Source of the DNA: Microbacterium pumilum
GTDB taxonomy: Bacteria > Actinomycetota > Actinomycetes > Actinomycetales > Microbacteriaceae
DNA length: 64,000 bases
Direction: 5' to 3'
NCBI RefSeq assembly: GCF_039530225.1
Contig: NZ_BAAAOH010000001.1
Coordinates: forward strand, 2,480,001 to 2,544,000
This document shows positions 17,680 through 19,301 of this stretch, in pieces. The notes under the pieces were generated by a model. The model was not told where the DNA came from. It saw only the letters and a program-made list of their open reading frames with translations, and made no database searches. The translations under genes were made by a program, and so were the position numbers. Within the stretch, counting starts at the first letter, position 1, and every line of letters starts with the position of its first letter.

Positions 17680-17685
17680 AGCCTA
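17680..17685 (-). promoter_or_regulatory. -10 hexamer TAGGCT, leaderless lpdA start, overlapping the copC stop
   Basis: The minus-strand TAG at 17685-17683 is both the copC stop codon and the first three bases of TAGGCT, which ends 6 nt before the lpdA ATG at 17673. Confidence 0.65.
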
Positions 17686-18366
17686 TCGGTCGGCGGGAGG
17701 CTCGCTCCCGGCCGCACGTGCCGCATCGGCCCGCAGCGCGGCCTTCTCCCGCTCACGCCTCGCGCGCGACACCAGGAGGTAGATGACGGCGCCACCCACG
17801 GCGGCGACGATGATCCCTCCGATGATCCAGGGCAGGGCCGCTTCGACGTCGCTGTCATCATCCGGCGCGACCGATGGCGAGGGCGTCGGGGTGATCGTCT
17901 CGATCGGTGAGGCGGTGGGCGCGGGCGTTGCGGTGGGCGTCTCCGTCGGAGTGGGCGTCGGAGCCGGGGCGACCGTGAAGGCGAGTTCGCCCGAGACCGG
18001 ATGACCGTCGCTCGAGACGACCTTCCAGAGCACGGTGACGGCACCGGATGCTGCGCCCGCGAGTGGCTGTGTCAGCACGTTGTCCTGCACGGTCGGCGCA
18101 CCAGCGGCGAGATTCGTGCCGGCGGCATCCGTCACCTGCACTTCGTTCGCACCCTCCTCGGTCGAGATGTCTGCGCTGAACGTGAGCGTCAACTGCGTGG
18201 GCAGTGCATCGAGGGTCGACTCCGCAGCCGGATCCGACGACACCAGCTCATCGTGTGCGAATGCGGGGGAGGCGACGAGCAGGCCGCCGGCGGACAACAG
18301 CACCGCTGCGAAGGCGGCGATCACGAAACGGACGGGGGAACGACGAGAGGAAGTCTGTGCAGGCAT
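17683..18366 (-). CDS. copC: CopC-domain copper-binding protein with C-terminal anchor
   Basis: A 227-residue exported protein. After a signal peptide ending in SPAFA, the mature chain begins at His38 (HDELVSSDP), the N-terminal copper ligand typical of CopC; the DGHPVSGELAFTV segment near residue 125 provides the second conserved His region. A Pro/Thr-rich stalk follows, then one transmembrane helix (LPWIIGGIIVAAVGGAVIYLLV) and a basic cytosolic tail, so the domain is held outside the membrane. CopC proteins bind Cu(II) for export or import; the CopD/YcnJ partner is not present here. ATG 18366 was chosen by the -10 hexamer 7 nt upstream and by the signal peptide; 16 codons of upstream open frame are discounted. 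The Cys/Met-rich gene is divergent. Confidence 0.88.
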   Translation of the reverse strand: MPAQTSSRRSPVRFVIAAFAAVLLSAGGLLVASPAFAHDELVSSDPAAESTLDALPTQLTLTFSADISTEEGANEVQVTDAAGTNLAAGAPTVQDNVLTQPLAGAASGAVTVLWKVVSSDGHPVSGELAFTVAPAPTPTPTETPTATPAPTASPIETITPTPSPSVAPDDDSDVEAALPWIIGGIIVAAVGGAVIYLLVSRARREREKAALRADAARAAGSEPPADR

Positions 18367-18470: not shown

Positions 18471-18536
18471 CGGTTCTCGGAGTAGCGTGCCGGTCAGGCG
18501 GTCATCTCCGCCGAGGATGAGAAGAAGGAGCCCGAG

Positions 18537-18938
18537 ATGGATTCCATGATGATGGACGCCATGTCGAAAGACATGATGTCGATGCCCGGTATGGACTCGA
18601 TGGACATGTCGGTCCTGCAGGCGTGTATGGACGCCTGCTCGGCCTGCGAGCAGGCGTGCACGGTGTGTTCCACTCAGATGATGGATTGCGCGCCCGCGTG
18701 CATGAACTGCGCGGACATGTGCAACACGATGATGCGCGCCATGATGCGGATGCAGGGCATGAACGCGGCGACGATGATGTCGATGCTCGACGCGTGCATG
18801 GCCATGTGCCAGCTCTGCATGGACGAGTGCATGAAGCACGCAGACATGAGCGAGGTCTGCAAGATGTGTGCTCAGGCCTGCCAGGCCTGCATGGACGCGT
18901 GCATGGCAGTCAAGAACTCGATGATGGCGATGGGCTGA
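18537..18938 (+). CDS. Cys/Met-rich four-helix-bundle protein, Csp3-like copper storage candidate
   Basis: A 133-residue protein with 18 cysteines and about 36 methionines. The cysteines fall in four helical blocks at alternating 4- and 3-residue spacing: 30-34-37-41-44, 51-55-58-62, 87-91-94-98, and 108-111-115-118-122, so each block presents a row of thiols to the inside of a bundle. This is the arrangement of the DUF326/copper storage protein family (Csp1, Csp3), which store many Cu(I) ions. There is no signal peptide, so it should be cytosolic, like Csp3. Unusual here is a Met-rich N-terminal tail (residues 1-28) and Met-rich helix faces. AAGGAG at 18525-18530 lies 6 nt before the ATG. 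Divergent copC supports a copper role; metal and stoichiometry are inferred. Confidence 0.8.
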   Translation: MDSMMMDAMSKDMMSMPGMDSMDMSVLQACMDACSACEQACTVCSTQMMDCAPACMNCADMCNTMMRAMMRMQGMNAATMMSMLDACMAMCQLCMDECMKHADMSEVCKMCAQACQACMDACMAVKNSMMAMG

Positions 18939-18950
18939 GCCCGAACTGCA

Positions 18951-19301
18951 TCAGCCTCGCTGGATGTTGAACCGCTGGCCTCCGACGGCCAGCACGTTGT
19001 AGCGCCCGTGCACAGCCACGGGTGAGCCCGGAGCGACGTGCGCCGCCGCACCGGAGGCGCTCCACAGCGCGATCGGCGCCGAGTCCGTGAGAGTGCGGAC
19101 GATGACGACGCCGGTCGCGGCATCCGCCCACTCGACGATCGCGTCATCCCAGTCGGAGGGCGTCGCCGATGCGAGACGCGCCTGGATCAGGTGCAGCGCG
19201 TGCCCCGGTGCGAACGAGGAGCAGACGTCACCGTGGTCGCACATGCACGCCGCACGCTCCCGCACCTCGACGGGCGGGTTGTGGCGCTGCGGGCTCGACA
19301 C
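18951..19301 (-). CDS. hypothetical 116-residue protein with an N-terminal Cys/His cluster
   Basis: Not recognised. Near the N-terminus the sequence has a CMCDHGDVC cluster (residues about 19-27), followed by APGHALHLIQ, which could bind a metal or an iron-sulfur centre; the remainder is a small beta-rich domain ending in HGRYNVLAVGGQRFNIQRG. There is no signal peptide. An AAGGAG at 19309-19314 is 7 nt before the GTG at 19301, a clear ribosome site. It is convergent with the Cys/Met-rich gene, 12 nt apart, and may belong to the same metal theme, but this is only positional. Confidence 0.6.
   Translation of the reverse strand: MSSPQRHNPPVEVRERAACMCDHGDVCSSFAPGHALHLIQARLASATPSDWDDAIVEWADAATGVVIVRTLTDSAPIALWSASGAAAHVAPGSPVAVHGRYNVLAVGGQRFNIQRG

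Follow-up and report, generated by a model that had tools for sequence, protein, structure and literature searches.

The csp locus and its product

The window analyzed here is a 64,000-nucleotide (nt) stretch of the genome of the soil bacterium Microbacterium pumilum (contig NZ_BAAAOH010000001.1, positions 2,480,001 to 2,544,000). It carries csp, an open reading frame (ORF) whose methionine (Met)- and cysteine (Cys)-rich product is, to judge from its sequence, very likely a Csp-family protein that stores Cu(I), and which lies tail-to-tail with a small gene referred to below as the partner. The features of this locus are as follows.

18483..18488, plus strand: TAGCGT, a -10-like hexamer aligned by eye with TAGCAT/TACCAT of relatives
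18497..18512: GC-rich inverted repeat GGCGG-TCATCT-CCGCC (GGCGG-N6-CCGCC), 24 nt before the csp start codon
18523..18530, plus strand: AGAAGGAG, ribosome-binding sequence of csp
18537..18938, plus strand: csp, encoding a Met-rich Csp-family protein of 133 amino acids (aa) with 18 Cys and 36 Met (ORF translation, alignment, and model)
18537..18608, plus strand: codons 1-24, Met-rich N-terminal tail with 11 Met (predicted local distance difference test [pLDDT] of ~55 over residues 1-20)
Residues 24-45, 52-70, 77-99, and 106-132 of the csp product: helices of the predicted four-helix bundle
18939..18950: 12-nt gap between the csp and partner stop codons, in which no terminator-like site was found
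18951..19301, minus strand: partner, 116 aa with a GTG start, a Cys/His arm (CMCDHGDVC...GHALH) followed by a small beta barrel

The csp ORF is real and far from a chance occurrence, since 141 of 146 database candidates match its product at an E value of ≤1e-3 and its pattern is preserved across dozens of genomes, one per species. Among the best 120 of these 141 matches, the named closest homologues belong to Microbacterium; two entries (P0011 and P0028) already have the name four-helix bundle copper-binding protein, the majority of the remainder being hypothetical or without a name. Third-position GC content of the ORF is 0.91, and the host genome (4.45 Mb) holds a single csp match at the sensitivity used. 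Translation bore out the original prediction, made from the DNA letters alone, of 18 Cys in four blocks with alternating 4/3 spacing: they lie at residues 30, 34, 37, 41, 44 / 51, 55, 58, 62 / 87, 91, 94, 98 / 108, 111, 115, 118, 122, in blocks of 5, 4, 4, and 5. Its estimate of about 36 Met in 133 residues with a Met-rich tail was equally accurate. His101 is the sole histidine, and residues 1-29, by reading, contain neither a hydrophobic stretch nor a twin arginine, that is, no export signal.

Structure prediction, the check proposed along with the original prediction, gave the four-helix bundle typical of the family, and a column comparison with classical relatives places a Cys ladder over all four helices. 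At each of 17 of the 18 Cys positions, 12 or more of the 13 classical relatives have Cys as well; only Cys55 departs from this. The protein scores below the cut-offs of both the NCBIfam Csp1 model TIGR04401 (34.2 bits against 100) and Pfam DUF326 PF03860 (12.3 bits against a gathering cut-off of 20.4); a precomputed PF03860 match exists for 116 of the best 120 listed relatives. Three hallmarks of known subgroups are missing. Of the three-His loop motif HxxxHxH of classical Csp3 proteins, His101 is kept, and residues 105 and 107 are Ser and Val; the Asn or Asp at the interface of mouth and core is Cys55; and the gate Met and helix1-helix2 loop His of the RkCsp3 subgroup are absent, with Cys55 at the gate and the single His at 101. 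Storage of sulfur amino acids or of another soft metal such as Ag(I), Zn(II), or Cd(II) in place of copper seems to us very unlikely: Met or Cys account for 54 of the 133 residues and csp showed no signal for regulation by copper, both of which would suit such a role, but the core Cys positions and the fold agree with Cu(I)-loaded Csp3 structures, and systems that handle Cu(I) often contain Met-rich segments.

Distribution and residue conservation of the Met-rich group

A csp match was found in 60 of 71 genomes of the genus. Class A, the type found in the window (~18 Cys and ~34 Met), is present in 43 of them and was counted together with three genomes carrying divergent Met-rich proteins (G038, G043, and G061; 46 in all). 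Class B (13 Cys, ~38 Met) was assigned by similarity in 11 genomes, 10 of which were fetched (locus G027:C69 was left out). Classical Csp3 proteins of the genus have 17-18 Cys and 4 to 6 Met, and 13 of ~22 classical-like matches were fetched. Class A and classical csp genes occur together in several genomes, e.g., G001, G013, G018, and G066. Two class-B csp genes, each with a convergent partner, lie ~11 kb apart on the same contig of G070 (C1:787138-787536 and 798052-798408; L065 and L070). When one genome per species was scanned, 249 csp relatives were confirmed, and the best 80 of these loci span 18 named genera, including Microbacterium, Cryobacterium, Leifsonia, Agromyces, Mycetocola, Salinibacterium, and Naasia. 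Counts from this second set and from the 57 genus loci are not independent, as the two share species (L132, L153, and L155 correspond to G019, G028, and G011), and loci L001-L030 have flanks of ~1.5 kb or less. One record, titled Planococcus sp. APC 4015 (L138), contains a Microbacterium-type class-A pair and is possibly mislabelled or a mixed assembly.

A 69-row tree fully separated 56 Met-rich proteins from 13 classical ones with a support of 100/100, its root being not known and unlike letter make-up being flagged, mostly for classical rows; the proteins of G038, G043, and G061 lie outside the class-A clade. The Met-rich Csps probably form a separate group, which occurs in Microbacteriaceae and also in a single genus from another family of the same order. 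The Csp family itself is already known. The open-access literature searched, outside which most subscription journals lie, yielded no description of the Met-rich group or of its partner, nor any article on Met-rich Csps or on a partner gene for a Csp in Microbacteriaceae.

The original prediction also held that known Csp proteins use Cys only, which is wrong according to excerpts of two papers: the MtCsp1 entrance has Met40, Met43, and Met48 (a bridging ligand) together with His36 (PMC5171941), and RkCsp3 uses Met46, Met60, Met91, and possibly Met108 (PMC10155185). Residues were tallied in 135 Met-rich (69 class A, including the three divergent ones, 56 other, and 10 class B) and 13 classical sequences, excluding L021, whose frame extends past the usual end, and L070, whose start is unclear. 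Position 55, which in a gapless stretch of the alignment corresponds to SlCsp3 Asp61, MtCsp3 Asn58, and RkCsp3 Met46, is Cys in 133/135 Met-rich and Asn or Asp in 13/13 classical proteins. The same excerpts place the RkCsp3 Met46/MtCsp3 Asn58 site at the interface of mouth and core and link it to the rate of Cu(I) uptake (PMC10155185). Position 69, equivalent to SlCsp3 Leu75 and RkCsp3 Met60, is Met in 131/135 and Leu in 4/135 Met-rich sequences, versus Leu in 13/13 classical ones, and at the hydrophobic end of RkCsp3 an additional Cu(I) is described at Met60 with Cys71 and Met108 (PMC10155185, excerpts). The equivalent of Met108, position 125 (Leu131; one residue beyond the alignment end), is Met in 105/135. 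Met is also found at 66, 80, 83, 90, and 129 in 131, 128, 125, 128, and 123 of the 135, and at 27, like 125, in most Met-rich relatives. Position 48, which aligns beside a gap with the last helix-1 Cys of classical Csp3, is Met in 53 of 69 class-A and 32 of 56 other sequences. From the antiparallel topology, positions 27, 65-70, 80-83, and 125-129 would share the bundle end opposite the mouth, where the Met tail would start.

A replacement of Cys by Met across the core was mostly not seen. Where relatives have lost a core Cys, Ala, Leu, Thr, or Gly mostly stands in its place, so that Met cannot be read as a plain stand-in for Cys as a ligand; Met predominates among the replacements only at class-B positions 58 and 118 and, in the other Met-rich group, at position 122 (13/16). 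Met could instead be a hydrophobic filler, perhaps an oxidation sink, that takes the place of Leu, Val, and Ile in an ordinary Csp3-type Cu(I) store without any thioether-bound Cu(I), a reading that we find possible and somewhat doubtful. Composition bears on it from both sides: between the 13 classical and 45 class-A sequences compared, Ile, Leu, and Val together drop from 16.3% to 5.8% while Met rises from 3.3% to 25.2%, but the sum of all four increases from 19.6% to 30.9%, so that Met exceeds an aliphatic replacement. The fate of the lost Cys and the Leu of classical relatives at 27, 69, 125, and 129 (13, 13, 13, and 10 of 13) are compatible with a filler, whereas Met also occupies sites that are Gly, Ala, or Thr in classical relatives (65, 66, 80, 83, and 90), Leu hardly ever occurs at position 69 of Met-rich proteins, and the added Cu site of RkCsp3 is ascribed to a Met at that very position (PMC10155185, excerpts). 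That the core is extended by Met and has a distinct gate is a structural prediction with good comparative support.

The convergent partner, neighbouring genes, and upstream region

The convergent small Cys/His protein of the original prediction proved to be a conserved gene, whose product in the window has 3 Cys and 6 His. A partner match was obtained in 49 of 118 relatives' genomes, comprising all 46 counted as class A, two class-B genomes (weakly), and G056, which has no csp match; at class-B loci, direct reading revealed a shorter, 85-aa partner at the same place in 11/11 fetched loci. The partner lies tail-to-tail with csp in all 57 fetched Met-rich loci of the genus, with stop-to-stop gaps of 1 to 143 nt except in L021 (overlap) and L028 (978 nt). 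It is also convergent in 80/80 loci of the second set (three of them ~1 kb off), and a Met-rich csp adjoins it in 8/8 further family genomes fetched, out of 19 with a partner match. At classical csp loci, no partner-like match was detected in the fetched DNA (0/13). This gene order strongly suggests a working partnership of the two products, and the small protein encoded beside the store at every Met-rich locus examined is a concrete candidate partner.

Across 137 partner sequences, Trp51, Asp53, and Pro94 never vary, 136 retain His98, and 122 retain Cys27 and His34, the sequences without the latter two being mainly class B. Besides an N-terminal arm modelled with low confidence, the predicted partner structure (pLDDT 82) has one helix and six strands; a fold search in which oligonucleotide/oligosaccharide-binding (OB)/cold-shock and TOBE-type folds were considered returned no match at E ≤1e-3. 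When 297 genomes from the order were searched, 37 had a partner match, including 18 that do not belong to the family; among 198 genomes of the phylum, matches were limited to the genome itself plus one weak match. Seventeen of the 18 non-family loci were fetched, and a Met-rich csp adjoins the partner in two, both from one genus (L175 and L177). Distant relatives with a PGH...PWGWRDA...WHH...LHE-like motif and no csp (L169-L172, L174, L176, and L178-L184) come from other families of the order, one from Ruania, and seven such loci read by eye have no obvious common neighbour; these proteins make up a family without a name. In one partner homologue (P0205), the long C terminus resembles, by eye, an antisense reading of a csp tail.

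On the other side of csp lies the following gene.

17683..18366, minus strand: copC (Pfam CopC), neighbour belonging to an lpd-copC-garA-ftsR neighbourhood and not to the csp unit

The divergent copC that the original prediction took as part of a copper locus does exist (CopC Pfam score of 83.8 bits against a cut-off of 23.3), but its membership in a csp unit did not hold up. The fetched DNA contains lpd/copC at 25 of 42 class-A loci (43 in total, L021 left out) and lacks them at 17, and for 15 of these 17 the best copC match is on another contig or far off. Conversely, lpd-copC-garA-ftsR occurs without csp in G041 and G060; copC stays with garA and ftsR both in G060, where csp has another location, and in G041, where no csp was found. 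G056 has a partner without csp. Its orphan partner lies between garA and copC (L159, G056:C11:73500-79000, positions 2271-2764), with no csp match genome-wide at the sensitivity used. Twenty further neighbour proteins from 16 of 28 loci (12 upstream of csp and 8 downstream of the partner) included no copper gene at E ≤1e-8: five are major facilitator superfamily (MFS) transporters, methyltransferases and M18 peptidases account for two each, the rest occur once, and one is without a Pfam match. No conserved third gene was seen among the neighbours sampled.

The short inverted repeat noted upstream of csp is present at 18497-18512 and conserved in class-A loci of the genus; an operator and a 5′ hairpin are both possible roles for it. 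It occurs in 22/25 class-A loci with copC/lpd and 16/17 without (2.9 and 1.8 expected from shuffles), an enrichment that is overstated since the pattern was written after inspection of the sequences, and in 19/24 class-A loci of the other, species-overlapping set; the figures are 0/10 for class B, 2/56 for other Met-rich loci, and 2/13 for classical ones. A stable RNA hairpin was considered and rejected, as the window locus is not above its shuffles (z of 0.42) and matches no Rfam family; taken individually, just 7% of the upstream regions of 134 Met-rich genes scored above their own shuffles at the 5% level. Stems of at least 5 pairs near -35 are found in 29% of 90 non-redundant Met-rich upstream regions versus 7% of shuffles, a test that fails to separate the groups because the 13 classical loci reach 23% too. 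A sigma-70 scan found nothing, and no promoter-like or terminator-like site stands out at the csp-partner locus. Three CsoR-family genes and eight HMA-domain matches lie elsewhere in the host genome, two of the csoR-family genes having HMA-domain matches just downstream (L189 and L191). A box of the TACCCC...GGGGTA type precedes csoR in L189 (pattern match) and is partial in L191 (by eye). A copper-type operator at csp was also rejected, such a CsoR-like palindrome being found at one csoR operon of the genome and none at csp.

These data bear on another role for the partner, that of a regulator, e.g., a beta barrel that binds RNA or DNA and acts at the inverted repeat upstream of csp, with read-through transcripts of the tail-to-tail genes opposing each other. 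We regard this as rather unlikely: the predicted barrel and the repeat would fit it, but the partner fold matches stay below a trustworthy level, the repeat is nearly confined to class A even though the partner is present at class-B and other Met-rich loci, and the locus offers no standout promoter or terminator.

A proposed Met-rich store and its relation to known Csp systems

Taken together, we propose that csp encodes a Met-rich cytosolic Cu(I) store with a Met-lined closed end and a dedicated partner, an explanation that, as a whole, we put at roughly 55%. The data show the protein family, the predicted fold, the conservation of residues, and the pairing of the two genes; Cu(I) binding, coordination by Met, location, and the contact and role of the partner are all inferred. 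The inward-facing Cys ladder of the predicted bundle would bind most of the Cu(I). Compared with classical Csp3, the mouth would be rebuilt, with the last helix-1 Cys and two of the three loop His gone and Met48/49 added, and Cys55 would replace the Asn/Asp gate between mouth and core. Conserved Met at 65, 66, 69, 80, 83, and 129 would line the hydrophobic closed end, where their thioethers may lengthen the series of Cu(I) sites, in the way that RkCsp3 gains one extra site, and the Met-rich tail may pass Cu(I) in or out at this end. The partner would act as an adaptor, its beta barrel binding the store and its Cys/His arm touching metal in most members. A stronger version, in which closed end and tail form a second thioether gate of a two-ended store and the partner is a dedicated loader, unloader, or adaptor, is speculative.

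Several observations weigh against this proposal. One of the two RkCsp3-type Met is missing from the window protein, which has Val125, and Met takes over from lost core Cys at few positions. The class-B partner lacks the Cys/His arm, so the arm is not needed for pairing. G056 retains a partner without csp, and 15 of the 17 non-family partner loci have no csp in the fetched DNA (mostly ~3 kb on each side), so that pairing reaches one further family and distant partner relatives stand alone. Copper-responsive transcription of csp is not supported, because csp has no TACCCC...GGGGTA type box. Overall, the original interpretation is partly supported. A dedicated partner, if true, would have no precedent among Csps in the literature searched, and the fixed Met positions make a thioether extension of the thiolate copper core directly testable.

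The closest known systems are the cytosolic SlCsp3 of Streptomyces lividans (PDB 6q6b, 6ek9, and 6qvh), RkCsp3, and MtCsp1. Relative to SlCsp3, the window protein has Cys55 for Asp61, Ser and Val for His111 and His113, a replaced last helix-1 Cys, a shorter helix1-helix2 loop, 36 Met (against 4-6 in classical relatives of genus and order), and a convergent partner gene. With RkCsp3 of Methylocystis (PDB 6zif), it shares the lack of a full loop His motif and a Met at the closed-end position equal to Met60; it differs in its gate, which is Cys instead of Met, in having no His in the helix1-helix2 loop (PMC10155185, excerpts), in additional Cys on the mouth side of helices 1 and 2, and in its Met content. 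Like the exported store MtCsp1 (PDB 5fje), it has Met at the bundle mouth (PMC5171941, excerpts), but it lacks an export signal and falls well short of the Csp1 model cut-off.
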